Source: Ornithodoros turicata
Taxonomy: Eukaryota > Arthropoda > Arachnida > Ixodida > Argasidae
Assembly: GCF_037126465.1 (NCBI RefSeq)
Contig: NC_088201.1
Location: 83,232,273-83,296,272, forward strand
Length of the DNA stretch: 64,000 bases
Direction of reading: 5' to 3'
In this document: one piece after another, positions 12,290 through 59,490 of the stretch
How positions within the stretch are numbered: the stretch's first letter is position 1
Layout of the letters: the number at the start of each line of letters is the position of its first letter
Program-made: the position numbers and the translations under genes
The notes under the pieces: generated by a model
The model's database searches: none
What the model was told of the DNA's origin: nothing
The model's input: only the letters and a program-made list of their open reading frames with translations

Positions 12290-12710
12290 CCGGTAATAGC
12301 TATTAATGTATGCGATGACACAAAATATTTTGTATTTATGATCACGCTGCGTAATCATGATCTGACCATGATGCAAAGGGGTATCTACACAACAGAGTCT
12401 ACGACATAGCAGAAGGGCGCGAGCCCGCGATTTTTATCGTTTTACCGGGGCATGGCAATATTGCTTTCTACAAATAGGGTTGGCCTGCCGATGAAGCCTC
12501 GGAAGGAGGTGTGGCTAACCAGAATCTAGTGTGGCTAACCGGAAATCTAGTGTTGCAGAACTCAGAAATCCAGGTGCGCACTCTACAAGATGAATACATT
12601 TTTCGAAGGACTTTCTTAAATCCCTGGAGATATGCGGATCTCGATGTACTGTGTACACGGGATTCTGAAGCACTTAGACGAAAGAGAGTGCTGACAAAGC
12701 ATAAAGAGCC
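12290..12710. repeat. Left half of a duplicated sequence split by the 17-kb element
   Basis: This stretch matches 31560-31985: both contain TGCAAAGGGGTAT, GCCTCGGAAGGAGGTGTGG and GATATGCGGATCTC followed by the CTGTGTACACGGGATTCTGA block. Homology breaks exactly where CACTG begins at 12711 and resumes after the other end of the element at 30068. Confidence 0.85.
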
Positions 12711-13060
12711 CACTGTTAGAAAGAAAAATATAAATAAGGTAATAATGGGGTTATTATACCTCTTTTATACCTTCTGCTTCAGATGTATACCTTTGGAGGG
12801 TATACAAGAGGTACAAATTTCCGATTTATAAAGAGGTATAAAGGAGGGCTAACGTAACATACTTATACCCGGTACCAGGTATACATCACCGGGGCTATAC
12901 ACTCTAAACCCGGTAACGCTTCTGTACCGCCTCAACAAGAGGTACATTTTTTAAAAAATGTACCTCATTATTTACGCGGTACAGCGAACCTCATAGCAGA
13001 AGCCGCGATGATGGGGTACAGCGCACCCTTTTATTAATAGGGTACATAAAGGTAGCATGC
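12711..13060. repeat. Left subterminal repeat array (GGTATA, GGTAC)
   Basis: Many direct and inverted GGTATA/TATACC words at 12736-12905 give way to GGTAC/GTACC words at 12865-13045. The right arm (28900-30067) has the same two motifs in mirrored order. In plant CACTA elements such arrays are binding sites for the second element-encoded protein; that role here is inferred. Confidence 0.8.
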
Positions 13061-13083
13061 GCGATTCCCGGTCGACTCGCAGC

Positions 13084-13152
13084 CCGGATTGGCACGACCG
13101 AGCAAGGACAAGCAAACATGTTTGCTCGCCCTTGCTCGGTCGTGCCAATCCG
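13084..13152. repeat. Hairpin, 33-bp arms
   Basis: GGATTGGCACGACCGAGCAA is mirrored by TTGCTCGGTCGTGCCAATCC around a short ATG-containing centre. It lies just inside the left subterminal array. Confidence 0.85.
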
Positions 13153-13242
13153 AGCTCCAAGCAGACGGGGAATAATAATAATAATAAAACACGTAGTCTA
13201 GATAGCCGGGTCGCCACACAGACAGACTGCGCCATCCAACAT

Positions 13243-13248
13243 TTTATT
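13243..13248 (-). terminator. AATAAA polyadenylation signal for gene B
   Basis: AATAAA on the minus strand lies about 150 bases past the predicted stop at 13400, in the right orientation and distance to end the gene-B transcript. Confidence 0.55.
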
Positions 13249-13399
13249 ACATCCACATACCGCACATACCTTTAATGATATCCAGCAGCAAACACACAGT
13301 AGCCGCGCACAACACAACATAGTTACTGTGGAGTTTGGAGTCATACAACAGGCAAGAACAAAACGAACAAGCGTTCAGTGCAAGGCAGGCCACACGTCG

Positions 13400-16300
13400 C
13401 TAAGTCACTGTACATTGACGGCAAACTGTGTCCGGGTGCGGGTTGTGAAGTAATTCCGTAGCGCATGTCAAGAAGTGACAGTGCGCCTGGATGACTGCCT
13501 GGACCAGCAGTCTCTCTGAAAAGAAAAAAATAGTTAACATTCCAACTCTGTATAGCAAGCTGCTTCGCCCATCCGCTTACCGTTCTTTTTGCCATCACTC
13601 TGCAAATACACATAGAAGTTCGCATTGCTTTAGCTCGCACAATCTGCTACGTCAATAACTTACCTCTGTCCGAAACTGCAGTATGCTGTGGGTATCACAG
13701 TATTTGAAGTTGATTTTCATGCGCTCAGTGAAAAAAGTTACAACGGCATTAAGTTTTGTCCTTACCTTGGTTCCTGAACTGCCGCTTACCTAACTCGCCG
13801 ATCTTTGTACGCTCAGTGAAACGTCGTCCAGTCACGACGGTACCCAATTTTGTGCTTACCTCGGTTCCCGCACTGCCACTTACCTAACACGCCTCTGTGG
13901 GTATAACATAGAAAGTGGAGGTCAATTTTCGTACGGTCAATGAATCGTCGACTCACAACAGTCATATTTCGTCTTTACCTCGGCTCCCGAACTGCCACCC
14001 ACTTAACGTGCCGACCTGCGGGGTACTACAACAGTAGAAGTTAATTTCCATATGCTCAATGACACATCGAGTCACAATGGTACCCAGTTTTGTCCTTACC
14101 AGTTCCCGAACTGCTACTTAGCTGACACACCGAGCTAAGCCTTGCTCCTTTGTCCGCCTGTGATGATGATGATGATGATGATCATGATTACCGACCGGCG
14201 CTGGCGTGTTTATTCCTGGAGAGAGAGCGCTTCACAAAGAGCAATAAAGGGAAACCAGAGGCTGTCTTTGTGGTAAACTTCAGTTACAAACCTGTTACGG
14301 TTGATATAGTGCCTGTTTGTAGCTCATGTAGCAGGAAAGAGGCGCCCTGTATCCTTTTATTGCTCTCCTTGTGGAGCGCGCATTTTCCAAAAATAAACAC
14401 CCATTATATACGAAGGTCAATGTGTTCAGCATGTCTCTGCTACTACATATTAACAACTGGGGCTGGGAGGGGCAAAGAAAAAAGTATTGGCGTGACTTCT
14501 TCCTTGCCATAAATACTCAAATCCTGCCCTGATGTGCACAAGATCTTGTTGTGTTGTCAACAAACCAAAGTATGACACCTTAGTGGACCCTCACGTTGCT
14601 TACAGACTATGGGAAATGCAAGCGTAGAAAAAAAAAGACAAAAAACTTGAAAGGATGACTTGGTGACTTCCACAACAGTTATGTTCCCTCAGCCACTTAA
14701 TTCCCTTGTGTTTCTGATAGCGAAATGACTGTGAGGCAGCTCCACAAAGTAGGAGAAAGCTTCAAGCACACACAAACAACACTGGACAGTGTGACCATTT
14801 ATTTTGTGTACTGTTTACAATGAGAGCTTTGTACGAGTTGACTATATGTAACAAGAATGAATTGAACTTCAATCCTACGGAACATCCAAGACATCAATGC
14901 AATATCTTAGCCGCGAACCTCAAGTGATATCAATACCACAAATTATCCCAAAAACGGAGTGCCATATTGGTGGAGCCTAACTGCACTCACTTAGACTTTG
15001 TTGGCTACAAACATATTTGAAAATATTGCACTGCACCTTGCGCAAAAATAAATAACGGGCTGCCTTGTGCACAGCCACAAATATATTAACCGTAACATTT
15101 GTATCAAACAACACTGTTATACCAAATACGAGGGTCATTTCATAACTAATGTACCATAATTTGCTACTGGCTGGCAATGTTTCACCCGAGCAATACCTTT
15201 TCACAGTCCAAATTTGTAGTATCCCTGGATGCTATGCGACTGCTGCGTCTCAACGTCGAGGATGCATTTCTATCCCAATGAGAGCTGCACTTTTGCTGGG
15301 TGCTCTTATATCTTGGGTACACACTCTGTTAGGCTCCACTAGCGAACAAAAACGTTGCCCACACATTGATTCTTTCAACTTGGGGAACAGGCCGAAGTCT
15401 GATCGACTTGCGTCTTGGCTGCAGTCCAGGTGAGGTAACAGCCCCCACTCGTACTTACTCAGCAACTAGATCACAGATAACCTCATGCTCACCTCAACCC
15501 AAGCCCACCAAGTTTCGGCCTGCTACCCAAAGTTGAGGGAGCTGATAAGTGGACGTTTTCCATCCCTGGAGGACACTACAGTATAGGAAGCGAGTGTTTA
15601 CCTGAGGTGTAAGGACACTCAACAAATGCGCCCCTCTCAGCGGAATAGAAAACGTTCCTCTATTTTGGGACACAGTAATCGCACAGCAGGAATGCTACAT
15701 AGACTGACTGGGAAAAGGGAGTACTCAAGTGAAAAACTGCCTGCCGTTAAGAAATTACTGTGCGTTATTTATGAAATGACCCTCATATATATATCAGTTA
15801 CATTAAACAAAGGAGCTAAAAGGGACACAAGGAACAGGCACTTTGATGAGCAGACCAGAAGCCGTGAACCGAAAATTGCAGTCTTTGGTTCCTCACTGTG
15901 GGCGTAAAATACGACGAGTGTTTGAGATTACAAGATGAGATCCACTAACCGTCCCTGACGCTGCGAGAAAAAACAGAGTGGTTGACATGTATTTAAGCCA
16001 CTGTGACAGCGCATAAAACAGCTGCTGAAAGCGTGCCCTGTTGTTTATGTCCCTCTTGGCTTTAACACTTTCAACGAATATGCATTCAAGGTAAAATGAA
16101 ATGTCGCCAGCAGCTTCTAGTGATGTCAGTAAGACAGCTGTTAGGAAGGCTTGTTGGCTTTGTACTACGCTTATATCAGCGGGAAAACCACAAGAAGCCC
16201 AGTCATCCACTACGTCATCTCTATGTTATGGCAATGTGGGAAGACTAGCGGATAAGTGAAAGCAGGCTTTGAGCTTTTTGCGGTTCCTGACGGGACACAC

Positions 16301-19300
16301 CGAGATGCTTCAGCAACATAGCAAGGCGTTTTGTCTGCAGAGCAGCGTTGAAATAAGAGTCCTTCACTAGCACGGTTTGAAGGAGACCCAGCGTTTGGCC
16401 ATAAGCTTGAGGGTAGCTGAGGTTTTTCACATAGTACACACAGAGTACAAGAATGAGTGCTTTCTCCATACTGCAGCTACTGCTGAGGTCGATCGCTTCA
16501 TGCCTTGTGCGGATTTCCTTCTTCGCAGTGAAGGATAGGCTGGGACCTGGCACACGCTGACCTTCATTTACGTCCTCCTGCGTGATGGTAAATGTGAATT
16601 AACCAATCATGCAAATGTACAGTCACCACAGTAGCTACCACATCAGCTTACCTAGTTATGGCCAACTACGTACGGGCTATCCAGAGTAACTATAGAAGAG
16701 GTTTGTCTGAACCAGAGCTGTCAAAGAAAAACTGGTGCCTTTGTCACAAGGACTGTGTTGCAAACAGGTGCTCCATTGTGAGACATGCCTCTTTGCAAGA
16801 CAAGTGTTGTGGAAAAGACATTAGTTTCCTTTCGATAGCTCTGTTTGCGACGTCACTTTTATAGTTATGCTGGACACCCTGTATATCAGAAATACAGCCA
16901 GAGGTTTTTGGGTTTTATTTTTTTAGAAATTCATAGCGTAAAACTGAAGTCCCTGAATACTAAAAGTAGCGACAACTCCTCCTTCCCTCTCCCCCCGTAC
17001 ACGCTTCTCTCCCTTCACCTCGACAGTGGCACTGCCTGGATTGCTGCACCGTAGCAGACGACAGCCATGTTATAGCCGTGTTCAGGCAAGCAGAACATTA
17101 CTGTTTGCTTTGTTTGCGCGTTCTGGATATGTCTTCATTGAATGACCTCGTCAAATTTAGTCCCTCTATGAAAAATGAAGTGTCAAGGGAAAAATAATTA
17201 AACGCATGAAATAAAGCACTCACTTGTCTGTGGCAGTGAGCCGATACATTGTAGTGAGGCACCACTCGCGTTGTAGGTGATGACCGTTAGGGGATTACTT
17301 ATCAATTTTTACAAACTTCTCATTAAAAAAATACGACTGATAGGACGCCCTTTACCCCTTTTGCTTCTCAGTTTGTCGTTTCAGAAAGCACATTACTCTG
17401 AAAAATAAAACCTCTCTTTCCCATAGTAGGGACCTATCGATGTAATAAGAATAGATGTAGGAGTAGCTGTCGTAGAACATTGCTTAAGTAAGTTAGGTCG
17501 TGCTTTATTAAAGCTCCGATAAGCCATACTTTGGGTTAATTCGAACTATCTCAAAATTTTGTACGGCCTGCCATGCTTTAACGTATTCAAAAGCCGCTCA
17601 ATCCACACAGCATGAGAGAACTGAAGTTCTGAGGCTGGAACAACATAGAATAGACAAATGCATACAAGGCCCCAAATTGCCTAAGAAATTAACGATTAAA
17701 GATGGAAGTCAAGAGTGAAAGGGGAATGAGTGAGAGAGAGTGGTTGATTTGTCCCTTCAGATGACGTGCCCTTAGAAGTCGCTGGGGAGGTGTGTTAGCT
17801 TAGCTCAATTGGTAGAGCCCTGGACCGGTACTCCCTACGCCTTTCTGCAGCAGGAATGGCGGCCCCGAAGGAGGCTCCGCACCACGTGATAGCGAAAGGC
17901 CAATGAAAAAGGCGAGACGCAGTAGACCACGTGAGGGAGGAGAAAAGCGGCGATCCTCAAAGGTATGCGCTACTTTTACGAAGCATAGGTGCTTTAGGTA
18001 AAACTGGGGAAATCAGTTCATGTTTGAAATACATGCTAATGTGGGTGGAATATTTTGGTACATTTCTTCACAGATCTTTAGCAATTTTTCATGGTCTCAA
18101 GTTTTTAAAGTTTCTGTATACCAATATTATTCCCATCCGACAAACAATGCTAAGAAGCAAACTTATAAACACGCAATCCAGAGGATAAGAAATTAGAACA
18201 TGAAAATTTCCCGCCCTATTTTTGTCATGATGGTGGATTTTGTCACAACAATACTAACCGACAAATATTTTCTGCAATGACCTGAATGCATTAATGCTTA
18301 CTTTCTCAAATTGCCCTTTTTGCACCTGTACCACTATTGCCTGTGAGGCTTTGATTATGGTGGCCCCCATACAAATTCAGGAAAAATTAACATACAAGTG
18401 TGATGAGTGCAGTTTTGCACTTCCTGGACCGTAGGTAGCAGTCTATGTCTGCAAAGCTTTCTCCACCATGCTCCATAATGAACTCTTGACGTACATGGTT
18501 CAACTTCGCCACCATTTCTTCGATCGAGAGCTGGAACCTTAGTTCAGCTTCAACGCAGAGCTGAAAGCAGGGGACCATAAGCTTCGACCTCATATGCAAA
18601 TTCACCACACTTGGCGTGCATTCAATATGTGCTCAAGATCAGCTTTTCACGTGTGTAATTGTGCAAGGTATTTTCAAGTTCCAGTTGGCTAAGGCACATA
18701 CCGCATCCTCGTTTAAGAAGTACACTGGCAGTCTCTCAGGGTATTCAAGTCTTCTCACTTCATAGGATAGACGCAACAGTTGTTTCAAGCGTGCCAGGTT
18801 GAAGCTTACTGTTCCGTGTTCGAAGCTTGCCAGTACCTGCAAAAAATAATGCTGCCATCGGTTGTGGGAACAGTCACCCAAGCAACACGTACACATCCAT
18901 AGAAAAGGACTAGTCCCAAATTAGGAGCAAGATGGTATTTTTAGATAGGATGGAATTAGGAAGAGGAAGACGGGATTACTGCCACATCATCTGGCTTCTG
19001 ATGTTCTATTCTGTGTTTCCACCTGTCCTAGGGGAAATTGATTATATCAATAGTAATTAGTAGATTTAAGCTCCCGCATTGATATTCGACCCGATGCCAT
19101 CACGTCCGCGTCACTATCACAAAAATACAACAAAGATCATCCAATTCCCATCATGAAGATCTTGACAGCACTCACATTCAGCTCATTCTGTGCCTCGTTA
19201 CAGCTCATGGCTGTCCCAAGAATTTCTACAGCGTGCATGCTGTTCTCTGTCGAAGGACACTGGGTATCTACCCCAGCCATGTTCTTGCTCCACTTTGCCC

Positions 19301-19349
19301 TTAGCCGCCGTATCTTTCGCTTGAGCGATAGCCGGTGCATGAATACACT
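13400..19349 (-). CDS. Gene B: unidentified multi-exon gene inside the 17.4-kb element (5' incomplete)
   Basis: Seven minus-strand exons with consensus borders and agreeing phases: 19349-19176, 18836-18651, 18560-18396, 16577-16301, 16209-15950, 13599-13581 and 13515-13400. They join into about 398 residues ending TVCRQCTVT before a TAG. The first listed exon carries a basic helix-like segment, SLKRKIRRLRAKWSKNMAG, that could bind DNA or form a coiled coil. Later exons are mostly helical and end in a Cys/His-containing tail (QAHCHFLTCATELLHNP, then CRQC). Introns range from 65 bp to over 2 kb, with younger mariner and tRNA-like repeats in two of them. I recognise no family. By analogy with two-gene CACTA elements it may be the accessory protein; that is inference. 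The start exon is missing, perhaps the orphan exon at 24402-24520, and the 19-base exon is the weakest call. Confidence 0.55.
13676..14125. repeat. Tandem array, about 115-bp unit, 3-4 diverged copies
   Basis: Each unit carries GCTCA(G/A)TGA, a TCACAACGG/TCACGACGGTACCCA-like segment, TTTTGTCCTTACC and GTTCCCGAACTGCCACTTACC. It lies in the large intron between the fifth and sixth exons of gene B. On the minus strand each unit presents a GGTAAG donor-like word. Confidence 0.75.
15129..15785. mobile_element. mariner-like element with TA duplication
   Basis: Ends are CGAGGGTCATTTCATAA and the inverse TTATGAAATGACCCTCA, flanked by TA at 15127-15128 and 15786-15787. This is the mariner-type terminus. 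Internally only fragments of transposase remain (see 15257-15465). It sits in an intron of gene B and so post-dates the 17.4-kb element, or at least its intron. Confidence 0.88.
15257..15465 (-). pseudogene. mariner transposase remnant
   Basis: The frame includes the decayed block DCSQDASRSDFGLFPKLKES followed by MCGQRFCS. In intact mariner transposases the corresponding block has Y-S-P-D-L-A-P-x-D ahead of the same FPKLKE segment. The catalytic DDD core upstream is missing, and stops follow at once. Too short and mutated to function. Confidence 0.75.
16600..17600. other. Intronic filler with a decayed foldback end
   Basis: No exon is supported here. TGGACACCCTGTA at about 16871-16883 is the right terminus of a CAGGGTGTCCA-type foldback like that at 3236; its left partner is not recognisable. 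Confidence 0.4.
17608..17870 (+). repeat. Composite tRNA-like repeat, rearranged
   Basis: It contains GAGAGAACTGAAGTTCTGAG, ATTAACGATTAAAGATGGAAG and a tRNA-like head GTTAGCTTAGCTCAATTGGTAGAG. The same parts occur at 41479-41912, but there the tRNA-like segment is on the opposite strand relative to the GAGAGAACTGA part, so one copy has suffered an inversion. Confidence 0.7.
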
Positions 19350-20578
19350 CTGGAAGAAAACAGCGTACATTAAAGGGGGCAAGACAGCAGAGGACAATAT
19401 GTAGCATTTGGAAACATTGATGATGCTCTGAAAGAGGGGTTTCAAACGCCGGGCCCGAGGGGAACCACATAGCCTCAATACCTGCCGTGCGGCCCATGAG
19501 CCCACCGCCCTCCCCCAAGGACGTCTACTTGGTTATATATAAATTAACCTTACAACTGCACTGAACTTCCTTCATTTCTTACTTCCGATAAATTGTTTAA
19601 TTGGCGAAACCTCCCCACCTCACTTCATATAGATTTTTGGCCTGCTGGTAGGAACAAGGAAATTCCATTATTGTTACAGTAATGACAAAGGACCAGATAT
19701 ACAGGGTGCATCACTAGAAACGGTTTCATCCCAGTCCGCCTATTCCCATTTTTCATGATCCTGATTGATGTGTAAAAAGTGGGGGACGGGGGAGCACCAT
19801 TTGGCAAAGTGGGGCTACTGTGGAATCACATTATGCGGAATAATAACCCTGCTACACTAGCCGTTTCGATCACGGTTGACCTGAACGCAGTTGAGTTCCA
19901 CCATGGTTGGGGCTGTTACGCCACTGCGCCAACCGTGGTCGAGTTGCAACCGTTGTTGGTTCTTGACTGAGCTCACTGTCCGTGGTTCAGTGCTCAACTG
20001 GCCAACAAGATGGCCGCCTCCCATCTCTCACTCTGCTACTTCGAGTTACTCCAAACTGAGCAGTGTGCAACGATAATATCCCAAAAAACGACAAAAAAAA
20101 CAAAAACGAACAAAATGCAAGGCAGAGAAGCGGTGTAAAGCACAAAACACAAGACTGCGTTACGATTTGTCCCACATGTAACCACGGGAAAGAGGGGAGC
20201 AAAAACATCTGCTGATTTGTAATGTTATGTATTTGAGGCAATAATTTAGCAGATAACATAAATGCTTCAGCCATTCTTGCATCGAGGTGACCAATAAAGA
20301 GCTACAGATTTTCGAAGGAAATTTCTAGCCCTCAGCAGGACGGCACCGATCACCCGAACGTTGGGATCTAGCCGGTGAACGGTCCCTTATACCCGTCAGA
20401 CTGGATGATAGGTTATACACAGTTAGAATTCGACGCAGCGTACACATGCGGGCTTGACCCTATCCCAGGACGAAGCTAAAGCAACGGTAATCTCACAACT
20501 ATGTCCCTAGAGCTCACATTCAACACCTGTTCCTACTGCTCTCCCTTCGTGGTCATCCCTATGAAAACCGAACGTGTT

Positions 20579-20654
20579 ATGGTCGTAGCGTAGTGGTACA
20601 GCGCGACGGTTCTTTGGTGGTGTGAACGTTCATGGGTTCGAATCCTACGGCCAT
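20579..20654 (+). repeat. tRNA-like sequence followed by T-run (SINE head or tRNA pseudogene)
   Basis: The 5' seven bases ATGGTCG pair with CGGCCAT at the 3' end; a box A-like TAGCGTAGTGG and a box B-like GGGTTCGAATCC are present; an eight-T terminator follows. The anticodon arm does not fold canonically (the stem GTTC/GAAC encloses an 11-base loop). It is therefore a tRNA-derived repeat or pseudogene rather than a working tRNA. Confidence 0.6.
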
Positions 20655-22221
20655 TATTTTTTTTCGTTGTATCCTTCTTTTTACTTTTTTTCGTTGCGTT
20701 ACATTAATGTGGATCATAGTGAGCCGGAATTAGGACACACACGGACCCGTGAGAGACCGCGGTAAGTTGCCTCTAGTCCGTTTTGTAGTCCCATCTGCAA
20801 CGGGACCTCATAGCAGAAGGCTCTGTCGTATGCCTTTTTCCAACTAAAGCCTCATTTCGAGAATGCTTCTGCAGCTGTTTTGTTGTTGTAGAAGCCGCAT
20901 GTTTCCTGCCGAACATAGCTGGCGTCGAACGCTGACACAGCAGAACAAAAGCAGTGTTTGCAGATATATCGGGATCACACCAAGCCAAACCTTGCAAAAA
21001 AAAAAAAAAAACGGAGAGAAAGATATTGCATGATCTGATGCAAACTGCATACCACTTGAAAGGTCTGTAATCAGGAGCAGCATGATTACTTTGTTAGATT
21101 AGATGGCGCTATTTCCAACTGAGTTGTAGGGAGCCTCCATGGGTTGCTGCGGCTTCTCCGCTTTTCAGGGAGGAGACACCCTTTAACCGTGCCAACGCCG
21201 CCTTTCCTCCTCGCCCTCGTGCGGAGCGCGCATTTTGACTCCCAACTTGCTACGCGCTGACCATTGCCTGCTGTGTATTTTGCGCGTTCGAGCGGCCATC
21301 CGGCACATGTACACGCAAGTGATTGCATTTCTTCTGTACCTTAACGTCATTGTATGTTTTGGGAACAAATATCGCAGCACATCCCTCCGGAATTTTAAAT
21401 CCAGCGTGCAACAAGCGTGTCAGAACTTCCTCTATTACTGCTGAAATCGGTCGTTCCACGAGTCATTTCCTCGGGTACCAGTGTTCCGACCCATTTTTTC
21501 TGCGTGTACCACGTTCGGGTCACAGTTCTTTTGCATTGGAATTTACGCATGAAAGTGCTCCTCCTTTCTTTCCTCTATTTCTTTGAGAACCACTGCTAGG
21601 GCTCAGTTCATCTCCGTATTGTTGGTATGAGGTCGTTGATCTGTCGGCTAAAGAGCTAGGTCGCGAACCAGCGTTTGCTCTTGTTTGAGCAGTTCCTTTT
21701 TGATTGAGCAAATACATTCGGTTGGTGGACGAAGACCAGCGTGCGTGGAGATCTACAATGCGCGTTGCTCGCATGATACGTCGTGCAGCAAAATGCCAGG
21801 GTGTTGTGTGCCCACTCTCCGAAAGGTGCGCATTTGTATCGCGTCCCAGCATCAAAAAAGCGGAAAGATGTTTGGCTCGCGCAAGTAAAGATAGCAGAAC
21901 GGGAACCAACAAGGAGCTCGTACGTGTGCGATGTAAGCAAGCACCTTTGCAGCGTACAGTGTGTACCGTGTATTCCGGTATTGCTCAGTGGTCGTTTACG
22001 TTAAATTAAATTAAATTACGTTAAGTCTCCGGAAAGCCACAACAAGCTCATGGAGCTTCGTGAACACGTACGTGGTGCAATGAATCTTCGGTATATTTCG
22101 GGCACCGTAGCACATTTCTTCGTACAATGCAATGTGAAGAGGCATTCAGGGCGATATCTGCTTCGAAACGCATTTATGCGATGCACTCACCTTTCAAGAC
22201 TGTGTCGACTTTTATTCATAA
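20655..22221. other. No gene supported inside the large element
   Basis: Several overlapping frames exist on both strands at 21080-22010, none with a recognised motif or consistent splice structure. The stretch could hide missing 5' exons of gene B. Confidence 0.4.
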
Positions 22222-22450
22222 CAGTGGCGTATCTAGAGCTACCGGCGCCCATAGCAACATGGTTAACATGATGTCCTTGGGGATGCGTTTTCGTGTGGTC
22301 CGCACACTGGCGGGTGCTTTAGATCATTTATGAATGTGCCAGGTTGAGTGCCCGACCTGGCACATTCACACCCGACCACATAATGGCGCCCCTGTTCACC
22401 TGGCGCCCATGGCACCTGTCCACACCTGCCACACCCTAGATACGCCACTG
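22222..22450. mobile_element. hAT MITE with perfect 8-bp duplication
   Basis: 229 bp with ends CAGTGGCGTATCTAG and CTAGATACGCCACTG and target duplication ATTCATAA at 22214-22221 and 22451-22458. The length of the duplication and the CAGTG-type ends identify a hAT non-autonomous element. Non-coding. Confidence 0.93.
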
Positions 22451-22459
22451 ATTCATAAT

Positions 22460-23677
22460 AACGTGGACAATAATCCGGCTTGTGACCAACACAAAGAACT
22501 ATATCATGTAATCGTGTACAAATTTGTACAACTCCGATTGAGGGTGCACTTGCGACAGGAGCACATGTTGGTAAAACAACGTCGTCCTCAAGCAAAACGG
22601 CACCAATGCGACCTAATTTCCATTTTTTTCTATTTCTATTCTATTTTATTGAATGAGATGTTGTAATAAAATCTGCTTGCAATTAACATATTTCTGTTGT
22701 CTATACACATTCCCATGTTTACTATTGTAAATCGTTGGTCGATACACGACTGCATGTGCAGGTGCAGTGATGACTTTAGACAAACGTTACAAAGCATTAA
22801 CAACATATTTTACAACCCATGACCAGCTCTACTAGCATATATGACAGTTTCGCTACGCCAGTATCCTTCATTCCGCTTTTACCCTCTTCCTGTCGCGAAA
22901 AATCGAGACAAACGCAACCCCGCCGCTGACGCCCAATGCGATGTGGGAGTCAAGATGCCGGCGCTCGTAGCAGACGACGGAGTTGTCGCCTCCCTGAAAA
23001 GGGGACGCGCATGGAGGCTCCCTACTGAGTTGCACCGCTGCTGTGTAACACATCTGACCCTCTGACTCAGCCTCATATATTTGCTGCGTGACAGTCGAGC
23101 TTGCATTCATGAAAGGCAAAGGAAGGGGGCCCGAGTGAGGAGGGCCACAGGGGCCTCTTGCATCTGGGTGCCGCGGACATAGTTATACTACTGCTCTTCT
23201 GTCCCAAAACACTTTTGTGAGACTGCCCATTCCTGTGCAACTCTACTCTGGTATTGATTACGCTGCAGAAACGAAGACTCACCCAACAGTACTTTGCATT
23301 CCTCTCCGCTTTCGAGCCAGGTTTGGCGCTAGGCCACAGTATGCATGGGTGACACTTCAGCAGGCACCGCCCAAGTGCTTTATATTGCTCTCTCAACTGC
23401 CATGGTGCTTCATTTATTATGAGTTGATTCTCACTGGGATGAAAGAGCATCACAACGTATGCCCACATTATTCACATGTCAGTCTAATCCCAAAAATTTT
23501 ATCCCACAATCTTGCTCTAATATTGTGCCTCATGCATATCGGCGGAAGCCACAGCACAGCCACTTACTCATATAAGAAGCTGAAAAACAAGAACACAAAG
23601 GCAGAAGGGTTTGTTTCGGTCTCAAACACTGACAGATATCTTCAAGCTCTTCAATATTGTTAGTCTGGTGCAAGCAG
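22460..23677. other. No gene recognised
   Basis: A plus-strand AATAAA lies at about 22665, but no upstream plus-strand gene is supported. Frames at 22840-23660 on both strands lack motifs. Confidence 0.4.
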
Positions 23678-24381
23678 TTACTGTAGAAGTGGTTTTTTCC
23701 GCGTGGAAAATATTTTCGCGTTTTCGAGCAGAGCTGCTTTGTGGATTGATTCGCGAGAACTTAAATTCGCGACACCGGTTTCCGGGAGTGCTTTGCTCTT
23801 GCATATCGTGCCGCCGTCAATACTCGGGCATATTTCGGCACGTACTAAGACATCCGTTGTTCACGTGGATTGCGGCATTCTAGGTCTATTCCTTTCTTCT
23901 CCTCACAGAGATGGGAGGAAAGGCCCCGTAGGAGGCCATAGTACTGGCCGCGTGCAAGTTAGCCAGTTTATTTTAGCAGTTCTTATTAATTATCACTCGG
24001 GGCACTGACCAGTTCGGTTGAGATGTGGTACTATCATTCAAGCTGGTTTTGAGAATGCGGGGAAAGGCATGTTCTGGCTTCGTGGTATAGTGGTATATTG
24101 CATGTATAGTGCAAAGCGTTTATAGGAGTAACAAAAGCATGATGAATTTTCATTTCATTTCATCTTGCCTGATGGGATAAATCAATCTTCTGCGCTTGCT
24201 TAAACTGCCTACGCTACATGGAGTAGAAAGGGTCTGGTAGTCGCGGTATAGCGTCGAACGCCGAACGATTTTCGCCCTCATATGGCCAGAGTTATTCGCG
24301 GGAACTTAAATTCGCGATTTTGGAGGTGTGCGCGAAAAACGCGAAAAATAATTCCGCGCGAAAAAACCACTTCTACAGTAA
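23678..24381. mobile_element. Inverted-repeat element, TTACTGTAGAAGTGG ends
   Basis: The left end TTACTGTAGAAGTGGTTTTT is mirrored at 24357-24381. Inside, GGAACTTAAATTCGCGA-like blocks recur (near 23757 and 24299), with CGCGAAAAA-rich arms. No target duplication is evident and there is no coding sequence. Its right end is 20 bp from the orphan exon. Confidence 0.82.
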
Positions 24382-24401
24382 TTTTTCTAATTAATACTCA
24401 C

Positions 24402-24520
24402 TCTAGGTATTCTATAAGCTCATCTTGGAGTTGCTGCTGAAGCATTTTTTCCATCTTCTCGGACAGAGATTTTCCTTTAAGAAGGGGTTGCACCATGGGT
24501 GAAAACTCTGGCAACGTAAA
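24402..24520 (-). CDS. Orphan coding exon between genes A and B
   Basis: A 119-base open segment with acceptor GCCGCCCACAG and donor GTGAGT. Only the frame opening in phase 0 is free of stops: it reads FTLPEFSPMVQPLLKGKSLS, continues helically and ends ELIEYLE in phase 2. A donor-like CCT|GTGAGTGG at 24648, 128 bp upstream, suggests it belongs to a transcript that runs out of gene A's 3' region, but no phase-compatible upstream exon could be fixed. It may be an early exon of gene B. Function unknown. Confidence 0.5.
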
Positions 24521-24655
24521 CTGTGGGCGGCAATAAAGAGAAAAGAAGAAAAAAGAAACAGTCAAACACGTAAAACAGACTACACAGCGATATTTTAATA
24601 TGAGTATAGTATATTCTTAACTGTTGCCGAAATTGTCAACCACTCACAGGGTGGC

Positions 24656-27600
24656 TTAAGGCACAAAATGTAAACATCTGGGTATGCAAATGACTTCAAG
24701 GTTCCGGTTGTAAGAAAAACACGGCCAGGGGTACAGAAGCTTGCCAGGATGCACGATTATATTGTGTTCTGTGAGTTGAAGAACAAACGCATTGATTTTA
24801 CGTTTAAACTCCTTTTGCACCATCAGTTTTGTGAGGAGGTACTGATCTCTGTCACCACGTAACACCTGCACTACTTTCACAAACCGGATTTCTGCTGTTG
24901 GGGAACTAGCAATCAGAATATCTCCTACTCTGATATCAACGTTGTTGATCACCGTGCTAAATGCACCCATCACATCGGCACCAAGTAACTCAGCTGGCAT
25001 GCCTGCTGAGACCATCTGCTCATTTACAGACACAGGAACTGTCAGCTGCTCAACATCTTGCTTGATACAGTAACCCTTCTTTGGTGCACCAGAACTATTC
25101 CACAGAGCCACAGATGAGTGCACTTGGTAAAGCTCACTAACAGAGTATGGCAGGTTCTTAAAGTTACTGAACTTCTTCGATTTTGGGATAGAATTTGTCG
25201 TCTCACAGCTCATTGTTGAGTGATGCTTTAGTGGTCCAAATTGTCTGACTTGCTCTACTAGGTGCACCAGCATGTGCATCTTTGGGATAAAATTGGATGC
25301 ACCATAACATTCAATGAACAGATTACTGTGATCTGCCACTGCTGTTTCTAAATCACTTAAGCAGTCGACGGTCATGACTGGTGAGAAGCACACCTGAACG
25401 ATCTGACACAGCAGCACAAGACATGATGCATGTGTACCTTCAGGTACAAGGTCATCTAGCAAAAAGGGAAGATGCAAAATGAGCACCAAGGCTGCACTTG
25501 CTGACGTGACTAAAGAAAGGTCAGCCTCAAGTGCACGTGGGTGATCGCTAGAGCTAACACTAGAATGAAACTTGAACTTCTGCAGACAGTCATTTAGAGT
25601 CCTACGCGTGAACAGGCAAGCAGTTCGTACACAAAACCTGAAGAAGAGAGACACTTCCCTAATGACAATTCCTTCTAACAGGATGTGCATGGGATCAAAC
25701 AAAATGTCACCTGTCAGTGAAAAGTGCTGAAACCTGTTCAAAACAGAGTCACCGTTTAGACCAAATGTGGCAGAAAGCTTTTTGCGTTCACCTTCTGTTG
25801 ATGCACTTTTGAGCTGGTCAACTTGTTGATGCACCTCACTGTCTGTCCTTAGTGGACATTGTGTGTGGTAGCTGTACCCCGTAATTTCAGAAGAGGGCAC
25901 TTTGCATCGTCGACAACTTAACTGCACATTTGGCCCAAAAGACTCCTTAAAGCCTGCAATATTATGACAGGCAAGGCTGTCGCCCATCAGTGCAATAACT
26001 GCTCCGTTAAACAGTTCCGCACCTCTCACGGTAACAAAAGTCATTCCCTCTGATGACAAACGGTTTACGGTCTCAATGCATTCCGCAAGAAGCACTTCCT
26101 TAGCCGCTGTGGATTTCAAGCTTTTCGCATTGCCAATAGCAAGCAGGAATATATTTGACACTTGGGACCGCACAAAAGGTGGCATATTTGCAAAAATTAT
26201 GTAAAATATTGTCAGTTTTCCTCTGTTTCCTCTTTTCATTCCTAATGGATTTGCTACTTCAATGTCGTCACAGTACAGCAGCATCTTGAGGGTGTTACGT
26301 TCTTTCCCCAGCAGGGCAGGATGCGACTTCACCCGCAAGCCATCATGAAAGTCTTTCAGAATACCAGTAGGACTAATTTCGCTATTTTGCGACAACCAAC
26401 CATACAAATCAGGATGCTTTAACAAGTTACAAAGCAGCTGGCTGACAGGGACATAATATGCTTTTTTCCCATCCGGTAAAATAACCTGTTCTGGTTGAAC
26501 ATAGATGCCACGTCTGATGTACTCACGTTTTCTATGCTTGTCGCAAGACAGTGAAGATAGCTCACAAGGAATACTACAAAAAGCCATAATACTTGCTACA
26601 GATACTACAACTGCATCAATGGCTTTCTTTGATGAACGATGGTTCCCCTCTAAGTTGCGACAGAGGTCTAGAAGAAGTGACTCAACGTCATCACATAGAA
26701 TATTCTCAGCAGTGTTTGAGCTGTCATGACCTGGAGGGCTACTTTGACTGTCACATACATCAGATGTGCCAAATTCTAAATTTAAGACTGGAGCATCAGT
26801 CCTTGCGGATAGGGGCGATGCAGGCACCATTGCACGGCACACAGCTACATGTTCCTTAAAACGTTTAGCGTACCGTATGCTGCTATGGCAGTGCGAGCAA
26901 ATAAATGAGGTGCGACTACACTCTGAGCAATTTTTGGAGTGCACCCTGAAACGCTGATAGTTTGTCGTAGAGAATCCACAGTATCCACAAGTGTTCAGCA
27001 CCTTTTCTCTGGAGGACTGTTCTACCGCGGCACGACAAACATTTTCAACCGCCTGCAGTATCGATGATGTTCCAAGGGGATGCTCCTGAGAAGTGCTTGG
27101 CATTTCTGCAAGTACGACAAGTTTATGTTGTAAGTATATAGCACTGATTTTTGCTTGTGAAAGCAGGTAGCAAAAGTTCACATACATACCTGCCATACCC
27201 GAGCTGTCATCCACCATCATATTACCACCACCAGTTCTGATAGCAGATGTGCAACCTGCAGTTCCTGCGAAATAGACCACTCATTAGAGCACCATCTACG
27301 CACCAAAGTCAGCCGCTGGCTATCTGTGGCGCAGTTCTTTTTTTTTTTTACTTCGAAAACATGGCTGAAAAATTTCACACACATGGTATGGCTGTGATAC
27401 CTTGACATCACTTATCGGTAAAAAAAAGCAGGCTACTCGGGCCTTGGCAAATTTTTGAAGCGGTGGAATATTACTCCTTGTCGTAAGGAAACTAAACGCC
27501 TATTTATCTACAGAATGCTGGACAAACCTGCTGCAGCCGTTGGGCCCTGACATGGTTCTTCTGTGGTGGAACTCTGACTTCCTGCAAAAACAGATGTAAC

Positions 27601-28317
27601 CTCAGCAGAGGCTAAATTTGTGTTTAGTTTAATTTTCACAGAACAAAACAGTTATGATATATCACTCCTTTACCTGAAGTGTTTAGAACAGAGTGAGCAG
27701 AAAAAGGCAGGTCTGGTTGTCTTCGCCCTGAAGTGATCAACTCTAATGTGGACTCTGTTCGCTGGGTGCGTTCTGTGCTTGCAAATATGTCTGAAACAGA
27801 TACTTTAATTATGCAGTGGCGGGTGAGCTCATCATACACAGCCTGTAGCTGTAGCAGAAACATACTTATTACCCACTGTTGATATGTGGCCTAAAACTAC
27901 CAACTTAATTTGAAAGCAATTGAAACTACTTTTTCATTATAAAATAATGAAATAGCACAAACTCAGTAGTTAGATTACAGTATTTAACAAGCTTTCATTT
28001 ACTTTCGATTAAGTAGCTGCTAGCATGTAATTACCTAAAGAGTATTCTAACTAGTAGTTTAACTACATGCAGTTGAACTGCTGCTCATCACTGTTTATAA
28101 CCTTGAACCCCCACTTTGAGGTCTTCTCTACGACAATTCACTTTCAAGACTACTCACCAACCGCGACGTGAGACACAGGGGAGTGTCCACAATATTCGCA
28201 CCATCCTGGCGGGAAAGGCCCTGACGTCCACAGCTCAGTGCTCCTCATGAATGATGTGCACTCACAGGTTGTGCACGCACCCCGGACGGTGCCTCTTACG
28301 TCCTTGTTCGTGCTCAT
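24656..28317 (-). CDS. Gene A: zinc-finger transposase-like protein of the 17.4-kb element
   Basis: Five exons with consensus borders, all introns in phase 1: 28317-28158, 27790-27674, 27581-27528, 27264-27190 and 27105-24656. They encode 951 residues. The 84-base last intron has no stop and keeps frame, so unspliced DNA also reads through it. Residues 15-50 form a cysteine-rich module (CTTCEC ... CEYCGHSPVSH). Two C2HC fingers lie at about 175-195 (CGYC...H...C) and 205-225 (CSHC...H...C). The core has GDSLACHN (Asp about 511), a CRRC pair, and FDPMHILLEG (Asp about 606); an acidic D/H-x-x-LLEG site is seen in TNP2-type CACTA transposases. It likely cuts and joins the element ends. The family is inferred from two motifs and from context; the third acidic residue is not assigned. 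Confidence 0.78.
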
Positions 28318-28899
28318 TGTATGAGGTCCAGGGCGTCTCGGACGTAAGATGCGTCACGAACGCTAAATGGAAACTACGTGTCCCGAAAATGCTCCTAGGA
28401 ATCCCTCATGGCGTAGATAAGCTTTACACTCACTCACCTGAATACCATTAACATGTGTGGGCTAAGACTGCCGATGGGGGAAGCCAATAAGGCAGATCCT
28501 CTGCTTCACACAAAGCAAAACGACGGCAGACGAAACCGCGGAACGCATGCGAAACGTGAAACCACGACGGACGCACGGACGTGAGACGATAGGCCGCATA
28601 AACGATTTTATTACTTTCGACACAGTCAGCATACGTCGTCAGGCAATTCCAGAAAAACAAATTAGAAAAGCAAATTAAAAGTAATGTCGCAGTATAAAAA
28701 GGTTTGTGGGCTCCGTGGAGGTAGGAAAGCCAGGAAAGCTTTCCTACTCCGCAGTCGTCATCCGGTTCCGCCGAGAAAATCTAATCCGAAACCGCACGCA
28801 GTTCACACGTTGTTTCGTTGTTTGTAGGCCGTGTCACTCGCGCATTACAGATCGACGAAAATTTTGTCATCTTCATCAGGTACAGAAGGGCCGCTCTCC

Positions 28900-30067
28900 C
28901 GTTTCATTTAGCAGGTACATGCCTCACTCAGCGGGTACAACGCCCGGTACCTGACTTGTACCCCATGGACTTAGAAGCTTGGAAACTTCTTTTGTGCATG
29001 CGGCTCTGTACCCGTTGCAAAGTTCCCTTCGTGTTCGCGTGTCAGTTGTGTACCTTTTGCGGTGGCGCCTGGTACTACAGGGCCGGTACACGTGCGGTAC
29101 CCAACGGGGGGCCGATTTAGAGTGTACCTCTCACGGTATAGGTGAGGCTGCTTATACCTTCTGCGTTTTGATACATTCATGTTTTTTTATACCTTTACTT
29201 CCGCAACGTGCTCTATAACATCATTCTTTTTTTTCTTGAGACGGTATCAGCTAAGTTAAACCGATATTTAATTAAGAAACACAGACATCAGTACAGTAGT
29301 ATCTGAATCCACATGGTAAGTTTGTGGCTGCATAATATCTGTATTAAACCTGCGATGATTAAATCTAGACGTCCTCACCCTTAGAGCCGCTTACCAGGCG
29401 AAGGCTGCTTCACAACTTGTCAAGTCGCCAGCGGTATATCAGTATTTGTTGCCCTGTAAATGTCTATCTCGCGATACACACTACGATGACTGCGCACTGC
29501 CAAACTCGCGAAGCGGTCTTCCTGCTGGAAACTTTTCTTTTGTTTTTCACTCCATATCTTTTTTTTTTTTTTACATGGGGAGTAATGTGGACGAGTCTTG
29601 CTTTCTACTTCACATCCTTATGCGTCTGCGCGTGTTTGTAGCACGTGTGTGTGTGTGCGTCAAAAGAAAATTTGTTTGCTTTTCTTCCCTCCAGGGGCTA
29701 GATTTTGAACTTTTCGCTATCCCGTAACGCTTGCTAAACGCTCGTGCTCCCCGGTTGACGGCCAATGCGCGTGACGGAATGAGCGCGCAAATTTTGAAAA
29801 ATAGCTATAACGATCGCTATGTGCAGATCAAGATTGAGCCCCAGATATGGTTTTTCTCGTTCCCTCCTCTAAAAATTTGTCGGAAACTGGATTAGAATCT
29901 ACCTTTGTAGCGGTATAGCTTGTGTACCCAAGAGGTATAAATTCTAGACCTCCACTAGGGTATAAACTATTTATACCTTTTCGGAAGGTATAACTTTATA
30001 CCCTAAAAGGTACGAGTTATTGCACGGGCGATTTTTACCTTAAAAGGTAAATTTTTTTCTAACAGTG
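28900..30067. repeat. Right subterminal repeat array
   Basis: GGTAC/GTACC words at 28908-29130 are followed by GGTATA/TATACC words at 29130-29200 and 29905-30060, mirroring the left arm. The segment 29128-30067 matches 39680-40486 in order, including CTTGAGACGGTATCAGCTAA and GTCAAGTCGCCA. Confidence 0.82.
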
Positions 30068-30270
30068 ACTGTGTACTCGCAGTACCAGAATAGCCGTTCC
30101 ATTACCGGAAGCAGTAGCCCAAAGATTGCGGAAATAAATGAGAGTTCAAGGTGGTATCGGAAGCCACAACGGGGATACAATTACTTCAGCAACGAAAATG
30201 GAAACGGTAACAAAAGAAATCGCATTACCCTTCCCTAATTATATTACAAATACCGAAAAGTATAACTGCT
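30068..30270. repeat. Right half of the split duplicated sequence
   Basis: It resumes the homology to 31990-32190 (CAGTACCAGAAT, CATTACCGGAAGCA, CTTCCCTAATTATA, AATACCGAAAAGTAT) that was broken at 12710. Confidence 0.82.
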
Positions 30271-30374: not shown

Positions 30375-30844
30375 AGAGTGATATTAAACGGTAAGAGCAA
30401 CTTATTTATTTACACATGGTAACGAGACTTTCGTGCACAAGACGGCACTTCTTCAGGTTACAAAAATATGAACATGGTACAGGAACATATATACAGTTGA
30501 TGCGGCAGTTTTGGCATGAGAGGGTAACAGGGTGATGGAAAGGATGCAAATACAGGTAAAAATGAAAAGAAAAGAAATACAAACGCAGGGTTATCAGAAG
30601 CGCAACATACCGGAGTCCAAGGGATTACACAGGAAACGAGAACGCATGTAGGTGCATTTGTGTAGGTGTATTGTAGGTGTAGGTGTACCTGTATTTGCAT
30701 CCTTTCCATCACTGCCCCATCAACTGTATATATGTTCCTGTACCATGTTCATATTTTTGTAACCTGAAGAAGTGCTGTCTCGTGCACGAAAGTCTCGTTA
30801 CCACGTGTAAATAAATAAGTTGCTCCTACCGTTTAATATCACTC
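30375..30844. mobile_element. Foldback element, arms about 170 bp
   Basis: The left arm begins GAGTGATATTAAACGGTAAG and holds GTAACGAGACTTTCGTGCAC and ACAGGAACATATATACAGTT; the right arm (30685-30844) is its mirror. No coding. Ends are not sharply defined. Confidence 0.8.
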
Positions 30845-30859
30845 TTGGAAATATTTAAG

Positions 30860-39288: not shown

Positions 39289-39441
39289 TATATGTGCCAC
39301 GCCCTGCTCAATGACGTTTGACCAAGTTTTCGCTTCTTCTGCTATCAGGTAGTATTTGAAATAATGCTAACAATGCAGTACATCAGGAGTTCACTCTTGC
39401 CGTTAAAGAAAATGAAGTGTTGCCTCTACTTGACGTGGATA

Positions 39442-40486
39442 CACTGTTAGAAAAAAAGGTATTAATAAGGTATAATAATGTGCTCTTATACCTCTTTTAT
39501 ACCTTCTGCTTCACATATATACCTTTGGAGGGTATAGAAGAGGTACACATTTCCTATTTATACCTTCAACCCTTCTCGAGGGTATGAAAGAGGTATAAAG
39601 GAGAGCTAACGTACCATATTTATACCTCATCACCATGCGTTCATATCCAGTACCAGCAATAGATCACCAGGCTATGCCTTTCACGGATACGATGAGGCTG
39701 CTTATTCCTTCTGTTTCTTTATACCTTTATGGTTTTTTATACCTTTATTTCCGCAACGTGCTGTATCACATCATCATTTTTTCTTGAGACGGTATCAGCT
39801 AAGTTAAACGGATATTTAACTAAGAAACATACACATCAGTACAGTACTATCTAAATCCACATGGTTAGTTTATGGCTGCATAAAATCTTCATTGCTGGAA
39901 TGTTGAATCTAGATGTCCTCACCCTTAGGGTTGCGTACCAGACGAAAGCTGCTCCACAGTTTGTCAAGTCGCCACTAGTATATCAGTATATGTTGCTCTG
40001 TAAATGTCTGTCTCACGATACATCGTGATACACATATGATGACTGCGCAGAGCGTCTTGCTCCTCGAAAATTTTGTTTAGATTTCAACTCCACATCTTTT
40101 TATTTTTTTTAGATGCCGAGTAATGTGCACGAGGTTTTCGTCCTACTTCACAACCATATGCGTTTGCGTGCGTGCCAACCATGCGTTTGCGTGTGTTTGT
40201 AATACGTGTGTGTGTGTGTGTGTCAAAAACTTTTCTTCCCTCCAAAGGTGATTTTTCTAGTTCCTTCCTCTAAAAATACTTATGCCTAGGTGTGATGTAA
40301 CACCATGATGGTACTCGTGCAGACCTTCACAGGGGTATAGAGCTATACCCCTAAAGGTATGGCATATGGCCCTTTGTTGAGGACTATTTTTATACCTGTA
40401 ACCGAGGTATAAAATAATACCTAAGAAGGGCTAAGTTATTGAGCAGGCGACCTATACCTCTAAAGGTATAGATTTTTCTCTGAGTG
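39442..40486. mobile_element. 1.05-kb deletion derivative of the CACTG element
   Basis: Starts CACTGTTAGAAAAAAAGG and ends TTTTTCTCTGAGTG. The first 240 bp match 12711-12900 and the rest matches 29128-30067, so it equals the large element with about 16 kb removed from the middle. TA flanks both sides. It lacks both genes and would need the enzyme supplied in trans. Confidence 0.88.
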
Positions 40487-40661
40487 TAGGAAGTGTTACA
40501 AACGAAATACAGGGCCATGAGAGACGCAAGAGCAGCATTCATATCTGGTACTGCTTTCATGACGACCTGCTGATCTGCAGCAATCATGAATCGCCTAAAA
40601 ACGTAGGGGCTCCCTAACAGAAAAGAAAATATGGTATGACTGTTATTGATACAGGATGCGA

Positions 40662-41478: not shown

Positions 41479-41912
41479 TGAGAGAACTGATGTTTTGAGG
41501 CTGGAACAACATAGATGTGACAAATACATACAAAGCCTCAACTACCTAAGAAATTAACGATGAAAGATGGAAGTCACTGAAAAGGTTAGCCAGCTGTAGG
41601 AGTCAAACCCACATCTTCAGGATTACCGGTCCAGGGCTCTACCAATTGAGCTAAGCTAACACGCCTTCCGAGCGACTTCCAGGGTGCGTCATCTGAAGGG
41701 ACAAACCAGCCACTCTCTCTCACTCATCCTCCTTTCACTCTTACATTTTTGCTCACTCATACAGACATTCATACGACGGGATCGACGCTAGCGGCAACTG
41801 TTGAACGTGAGAGAACTGATGTTCGGAGGCTGGAACAACATAGAAGGGACAAATACATACAAGGGCCCCAATGGCCTAAGAAATTAACCACCAATCTCTA
41901 CCAATTGAGCTA
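41479..41912 (-). repeat. Composite tRNA-like SINE, about 1.3 units
   Basis: On the minus strand GTTAGCTTAGCTCAATTGGTAGAG, then CTGGACCGGTAATCC and a box B-like GGGTTTGACTCC. The unit (body GAGAGAACTGATGTT, GGCTGGAACAACATAG, AAGAAATTAAC; then the tRNA-like part) starts again at about 41811 and is cut by the LINE at 41922. Related copy at 17608-17870. Confidence 0.78.
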
Positions 41913-52570: not shown

Positions 52571-52771
52571 GTGCTAGCGATGATCTTATGCCAGTGACCG
52601 GTCGAGCTGTCCCTTCCATTTTTACGGGATGCGTCGGGTTCCGCCGGTCGTGCTCACTTCAACGAGAGGCTGATATCCGGTGCGAAACCAGTTGCGCCAT
52701 TAGAGTATACCATTCTCTGTCGCTATTGACGGCAGCGCAGAGCAAATGTTTGTTTCCAGGTGACGTTGTGT

Positions 52772-52843
52772 GCGTCGGTGGTATAGTGGTTAGCATAGCT
52801 GCCTTCCAAGCAGTTGACCCGGGTTCGATTCCCGGCCGACGCA
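52772..52843 (+). tRNA. tRNA-Gly (TCC)
   Basis: 72 bases folding as a standard cloverleaf: acceptor GCGTCGG/CCGACGC, discriminator A, D-arm box A GGTATAGTGGTTAGC, anticodon loop CTTCCAA with anticodon TCC, and T-arm CCGGGTTCGATTCCCGG. No intron. The sequence is very close to glycine tRNA genes across animals, which supports function. An identical-core copy is at 59419-59490 on the other strand. Confidence 0.97.
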
Positions 52844-52849
52844 AATGCT

Positions 52850-59418: not shown

Positions 59419-59490
59419 TGCGTCGGCCGGGAATCGAACCCGGGTCAACTGCTTGGAAGGCAGCTATGCTAACCACTATACCACCGACGC
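59419..59490 (-). tRNA. tRNA-Gly (TCC), second copy
   Basis: Same 72-base sequence as 52772-52843 on the opposite strand, with intact acceptor stem, anticodon TCC, T-arm and discriminator A. The flanks differ from the first copy, so this is not a recent large duplication of the region. Confidence 0.97.

Follow-up and report, generated by a model that had tools for sequence, protein, structure and literature searches.

The window analysed here, a stretch of 64,000 nucleotides of the soft tick Ornithodoros turicata (Argasidae; C1:83232273-83296272; other contigs are called C2, C3, C4, C9, C19 and C63), contains on its minus strand a set of spliced exons to which the 528-amino-acid (aa) P0014 (uncharacterized protein LOC135388598 isoform X2) maps in a single solution, with 11 exons and introns that are all GT-AG. 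The same strand has a long open reading frame (ORF; 24656-27280) with C2H2-like fingers, so that the zinc-finger transposase-like gene of an earlier, sequence-based description of the locus (the original prediction) was confirmed, along with further spliced exons. That prediction had placed the exons in a single 17.4-kb transposon ending in CACTG. We found instead that the 17.4-kb unit is two nested mobile elements, a 16.2-kb gene-carrying CACTA-type transposon inside a short 1.1-kb element (Table 1).

The matching CACTG termini are real: exact CACTGTTAGAAA is found at 12711 on the plus strand and at 30056-30067 on the minus strand, and with at most one mismatch it occurs 7 times in the window against 0.53 expected, a count reached in 0 of 100 shuffles. 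However, the genes are bounded by a different sequence, CACTCTAAA, present in opposite orientations at 12900 and 29124 with TA just outside each. Full copies of the inner element on C3 and C19 likewise end in CACTCTAAA next to TA but lie in surroundings unlike those of the window, and homology to the window breaks at 12892-12898 and 29127-29128; they thus span only the 16.2-kb inner part. The length of the target duplication, which the original prediction had asked to be read, is 2 bp (TA) for the inner element: TA stands on either side in 5/5 inner-family elements with both ends readable, with consistent empty sites, and it adjoins 21 of the 22 inner-family ends read (CA adjoins the other), a count that omits CACTC strings inside copies or without an element-like continuation. 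The arrays of GGTATA and GGTAC, described as mirrored on both sides of one element, are indeed dense, but GGTAC belongs mainly to the inner ends (18 in the terminal 800 bp versus 24 in the 15,425-bp interior, with 5 more in the outer element), whereas GGTATA lies mostly in the outer 1.1-kb element; the inner one lacks this motif in its terminal 400 bp and has 8 copies in its interior.

Joined at one TA, the two outer halves make a CACTGTTAGAAA-ended element of 1,130 bp, and this reconstruction aligns through the insertion point at 15 of 21 distinct places, 39442-40486 among them. The junction-spanning list holds 17 names, of which the pairs L005/L043 and L008/L045 are each the same place, and several of these alignments have small gaps close to the junction; the six places not spanned are L044, L049 and L059-L062, the last four having been chosen via right ends. 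At one uninterrupted place (C1:58724900-58726700) GAGGCTATACCTCTCACGGTATAGGTGAGGCTGC is found where the window has GGGGCTATA and CCTCTCACGGTATAGGTGAGGCTGC. The place 39442-40486 is thus an empty-site paralogue. It is probably what the original prediction took for a deletion derivative of the large element, a reading that was rejected because this place aligns through the junction as a relative of the outer element. Genome searches with the two outer 300-bp ends, also proposed earlier (best 40 of 600 and best 40 of 557 candidates scored), did find ends at matched spacing, at about 1 kb (C1:58725306-58726290 and C2:58341780-58342756; a third pair, C2:92912865-92913832, has an incomplete right end). 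Among outer-type elements with both ends readable, 7/10 are flanked by matching 2-bp duplications (TA in 4, CA in 3); L051, L055 and the window's own are not, a count that omits fetched copies showing one end only. The window's outer element reads CC/CACTG..CAGTG/AC (12709-12722, 30056-30069), with no visible target duplication.

A single 17.4-kb element that ends in CACTGTTAGAAA and has left a deletion derivative at 39442 would account for exact outer ends flanking the genes and for GGTATA on both outer sides. It is refuted by the gene-bearing C3 and C19 copies, which have CACTCTAAA and TA but lack the 189 and 943 bp of the outer element, and it is further opposed by the continuity of 15/21 outer-type places over the insertion point, the spacing of outer ends elsewhere and the absence of a target duplication at the outer ends; we give it practically no weight. 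The nesting of two elements whose ends look alike can thus mimic one giant element. The genome matches listed for the outer ends and the transposase include no autonomous partner for the outer CACTG element, and no further search for one was made.

The two genes originally described as separate have their first five exons in common in the annotated model. If exon 5 is not spliced at its donor, exons 1-4 run in frame into it and would give a product of 951 aa that ends at 24656; the transposase body is therefore the intron between the short exon 5 and exon 6, and the exon map of the annotated isoform removes it as such. The N-terminal 170 aa, with a zinc-type module, are common to the 528-aa and 951-aa products. 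We consider it unlikely that these are two independent genes, with the transposase transcribed from its own promoter inside an intron of the 528-aa gene. The long ORF could begin at M (27103) or further in, and the annotated model has the spliced-out form only, as that arrangement would allow; yet the reading frame of exons 1-4 continues into the transposase ORF, a distant paralogue likewise has a zinc-type exon upstream of its transposase, and alternative splicing is described for SmTRC1 and said to occur in Spm (PMC1636069). Somewhat less likely still is a fusion of transposase and TnpA-like protein, of up to 1,307 aa, made through a donor before the transposase stop (24665). The annotated Ixodes scapularis protein P0006 does join the transposase to homologues of exons 6-7, and 24665/24520 join in frame in the window. 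On the other hand, that donor would be GTGCCT, which is far from the donor consensus and whose bases encode F-V-P ahead of the stop, and neither the C9 copy nor L029 nor L030 keeps its G-T. One unit with two splice forms sharing an N-terminus is the organization we prefer; the pair of products would closely resemble TnpA and TnpD of maize Spm.

For the 528-aa protein, a protein database search returned only the protein itself (7,992 candidates scored) and Pfam gave nothing at E<=10; its exons 6-8 presumably resemble fish SAMD3-like proteins. The transposase has relatives in hard ticks, a springtail, Hydra and a brittle star, found in both single-sequence and profile searches (P0006, P0011, P0015, P0018, P0023, P0024 and P0026) or in the single-sequence search (P0013). 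Its candidate D, D, C(2)C, H(3)H and E residues are conserved in the family alignment of 26 sequences (first D 25/25; second D 25/26, with one N; both C 26/26; and, in rows with letters, the two H 22/22 and 21/21 and E 22/22) and are probably catalytic. DUF4218 is found at E<=1 in 12/26 family members (best P0010, 2.2e-5, below the curated cut-off) and Transposase_21 in 1/26 (3.3e-4). Elsewhere in the O. turicata genome, Transposase_21 has at least 63 matches and DUF4218 at least 20 (best 150 of 169 and best 150 of 705 candidates scored, respectively), and one Transposase_21-positive tick ORF (1/63 fetched, 640 aa of frame) is matched by two family profiles at 9.1e-9 and 2.9e-12, whereas its reverse and 200 shuffles of it went unreported by the same profiles. 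Several of the genomic matches lie in open frames of 700-830 aa and probably represent other CACTA-like lineages. Among PDB sequences there was one weak match, a zinc-finger protein (E 0.46).

Target duplications of EnSpm elements measure 2-3 bp. The residue pattern is that of EnSpm, Mirage, Chapaev, Transib and their relatives, and duplications of 2-5 bp are given for the CMCT group (PMC12730594). Terminal inverted ends of the form CA(CT)..(AG)TG are present in the C1, C3 and C19 copies and in a 9,440-bp paralogue, and the GGTAC arrays of the inner element agree with the subterminal repeats of CMC/EnSpm elements. Because of the residue pattern, the match to the Transposase_21-positive ORF, DUF4218 and Transposase_21 in relatives and the 2-bp duplications, assignment to CMC/EnSpm (CACTA-type), as originally proposed, is supported; the TA duplication alone does not separate EnSpm, Mirage, Chapaev and ESTA. 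One could also envision a tick gene, captured or domesticated, that merely happens to be repeated, in keeping with its annotation as an uncharacterized tick gene; this is very improbable, being contradicted by the many places with relatives of the transposase and ends of the CACTC type and opposed by the transposase residue pattern and by flanks that differ from copy to copy.

The inner element appears to have moved very recently, because only 6-18 substitutions separate the three full copies (C1, in the window, 16,225 bp; C3, 16,216 bp; C19, 16,237 bp) over about 16.2 kb. Pairwise, over 16,208-16,224 sites, there are 12 substitutions and 5 indels between C1 and C3, 6 and 3 between C1 and C19, and 18 and 3 between C3 and C19, a divergence of 0.04-0.11% (blast identity to the window 99.8-99.9%, gaps included) with all reading frames intact. 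The 528-aa product is the same in all three; the 951-aa product has 2 changes on C3 and none on C19, and in neither of these copies is there a premature stop in either product or a damaged splice dinucleotide. Older copies, about 95% identical to the window's inner element, lie on C2 (both ends, 26 kb with extra insertions) and C9 (right end and most of the body), and further places are matched by the left end only (C4:41210498, C2:61765254) or by right-end pieces only (C1:212246259, C1:206009622); the copy numbers are lower bounds. The distant paralogue (C3:6330773-6340212; best 52 of 1438 candidates scored) has a transposase 42% identical, ends CACTCTAAATTTGGTAAC and CACTCTAAATCTGGTAAC with TA on both sides, and a gene order like that of the window, with a zinc-type exon upstream of the transposase (a weak match to the exon 1 module, E 2e-4 in a two-sequence search) and colinear homologues of exons 6-11, some weak, downstream.

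The size of the element, held to be large for an animal CACTA transposon, is 16.2 rather than 17.4 kb and was rejected as grounds for calling the element novel. Neither the insertion at 23681-24378 nor that at 21127-23024 is present in the older C2 and C9 copies; later nested insertions therefore make up about 2.6 kb of the length, which leaves about 13.6 kb, and the distant paralogue has only 9.4 kb. Elements of 20.5 kb (soybean Tgmt*; PMC2613891) and 16-20 kb (red alga; PMC6431247) have been reported, and the size of the inner element is not exceptional. Two tRNA-like stretches inside the element (about 17800-17860 and 20560-20660, by eye) are perhaps short interspersed elements.

Against a copy on C63 about 70% identical, the ratio of nonsynonymous to synonymous substitution (dN/dS), computed on codons of locally alignable stretches only, is 0.135 for the transposase (785 codons); for the TnpA-like exons dN is 0.18 with dS saturated (343 codons), so that the ratio can only be called low. 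These low values point to selection having acted on both products. This suggestion rests on the distant C63 copy because comparison with the close C9 and C2 copies gives ratios of 0.41-0.65, values expected of copies in decay.

Taken together, we consider it probable, at roughly 0.8, that a potentially autonomous, very recently transposed CMC/EnSpm element of 16,225 bp, organized as one alternatively spliced unit, lies at a TA in the CACTG-ended element. Several observations weigh against this explanation, the close-copy dN/dS ratios among them. No annotated protein of the transposase form was found among the scored database candidates. The C2 and C9 copies hold additional insertions, so evidence for mobility comes from the three close copies. 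The profile check proposed earlier for the transposase gene (TNP2/CMC) found matches in relatives only: Pfam gave no family at E<=1 for the window protein, neither Transposase_21 nor DUF4218 fell on it among the genome matches listed, and other Pfam families match single members weakly (e.g., Mutator, 0.0023). The motif HHWTMRFEGKN, or a close form of it, that most aligned relatives have is replaced in the window by HHSTMSCETTN, the tick subfamily being similarly altered, and in 23 rows (several loci repeated) the E of this motif is D at L029 and K in the broken C2 copy.

Under such an organization, use of the exon-5 donor would splice out the transposase body and yield the 11-exon TnpA-like protein of 528 aa, whereas with the donor unused exons 1-4 would run into the long exon 5 and yield a 951-aa transposase of the DDE (Asp-Asp-Glu) type. 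By analogy with Spm, the CACTC ends would be cut by the transposase, and the TnpA-like protein may bind the GGTAC-rich subterminal regions and help to join the ends; cut-and-paste transposition at these ends into TA appears most likely. More tentatively, and with somewhat less than an even chance of being right, one could envision a currently active animal CACTA element in which one alternative 5' splice site in exon 5 decides whether the transposase or a short form is made. The short form, lacking the transposase but retaining the N-terminal zinc-type module, could then both assist and restrain it, and the arrangement would be old and common to soft- and hard-tick lineages. The three intact, near-identical copies are a concrete candidate for testing the two-protein scheme of Spm in animals, and the inner element is a possible gene-transfer tool for ticks.

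Table 1. Positions in the window of the nested elements, their exons and candidate catalytic residues.
Feature	Position	Strand	Remarks
Outer non-autonomous element, left part	12711..12899	+	CACTGTTAGAAA end; 189 bp
Outer non-autonomous element, right part	29125..30067	+	CACTGTTAGAAA end; 943 bp
Uninterrupted outer-element relative (empty-site paralogue)	39442..40486	+	TA flanks 39440-39441, 40487-40488
Inner gene-carrying CMC/EnSpm (CACTA-type) transposon	12900..29124	-	16,225 bp; CACTCTAAA at either end; full copies on C3, C19
TA target duplication, left	12898..12899		One of two TAs in GGGGCTATA
TA target duplication, right	29125..29126		Beside inner right end
Left subterminal region, inner element	12900..13299		6 GGTAC motifs (both strands)
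Right subterminal region, inner element	28725..29124		12 GGTAC motifs
Exon 1	28158..28317	-	Start codon; CxxCxC...CxxCxxH zinc-type module, common to both products
Exon 2 (shared)	27674..27790	-	
Exon 3 (shared)	27528..27581	-	
Exon 4 (shared)	27190..27264	-	
Exon 5, short form	27002..27105	-	Donor AAG/gtgctga at 27002; annotated 528-aa product
Exon 5, read through	24656..27105	-	Includes C2H2-like fingers and the catalytic region; joined in frame to exons 1-4, 951-aa transposase
Exon 6 (TnpA-like only)	24402..24520	-	
Exon 7 (TnpA-like)	23283..23433	-	
Exon 8 (TnpA-like)	19176..19349	-	
Exon 9 (TnpA-like)	18702..18836	-	
Exon 10 (TnpA-like)	18396..18560	-	
Exon 11 (TnpA-like)	16245..16577	-	Stop codon
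Candidate D	26269-26267	-	951-aa transposase
Candidate second D	25981-25979	-	951-aa transposase
Candidate C(2)C	Codons from 25915 and 25906	-	951-aa transposase
Candidate H(3)H	Codons from 25276 and 25264	-	951-aa transposase
Candidate E	25204-25202	-	951-aa transposase
Secondary intron insertion	23681..24378		CTGTAGAAGTGG..CCACTTCTACAG (CTGTAG..CTACAG) ends; TA duplication; edges by eye
Secondary intron insertion	21127..23024		TAGGGAGCC..GGCTCCCTA ends; 8-bp duplication CTGAGTTG; edges by eye

Other features lie elsewhere in the window. A strong inverted repeat (30375-30845, 140-bp arms, 95% complementary) stands just right of the outer element; two abutting minus-strand frames of 557 and 255 aa (42182-44623) resemble, by eye, the reverse transcriptase of a long interspersed element, broken at 43855/43856; tRNA-like genes were called with bacterial settings at 41588-41660 (Thr), 52771-52844 (Gly) and 59419-59490 (Gly); and a tandem array with a 235-bp unit (4.3 copies, 62971-63996) reaches the window end.

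Among the papers that word searches of the open-access literature listed, SmTRC1 was the one animal CACTA element described with splice forms and none was described from a tick, which does not prove absence from print; by title, none of those listed for tick EnSpm or for O. turicata transposons dealt with transposons of ticks or of this species. Like the tick element, SmTRC1 is an animal CACTA relative with alternatively spliced transcripts, most expressed sequence tags lacking the transposase ORF, and with a 2-bp target duplication (7/14 copies); accessory proteins that are unlike one another outside the transposase are counted as a common trait of SmTRC1 and animal TRC elements (PMC1636069). 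SmTRC1 is 4.5 kb long with a 54-bp terminal repeat starting CCC, in contrast to 16.2 kb and CACTCTAAA ends here. The tick transposase differs in being an in-frame extension of shared exons, and three near-identical copies of the tick element have unbroken frames. Maize En/Spm and soybean Tgmt* share CACT ends and asymmetric subterminal repeats, and in both the transposase ORF lies, as here, in the intron region of the transcript for the subterminal-binding protein, both proteins being required in Spm (PMC2613891). The Tgmt* duplication is 3 bp rather than 2 bp, and the N-terminal module common to both products is a tick trait not mentioned for En/Spm or Tgmt* in the available portions of the same paper. 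Within ticks, P0006 of Ixodes scapularis also has homologues of exons 6-7, into which its transposase reads directly, and HHSTMSCETTN sets the tick subfamily apart from most of the Hydra, brittle-star, springtail and tick relatives aligned. Because splicing of this type (SmTRC1, with Spm credited with the same; PMC1636069, 2006) and elements of 16-20.5 kb (PMC6431247, PMC2613891) have been reported, this kind of element is already known; what is special about the tick element is its recency, its intactness and its two products with a common N-terminal module.
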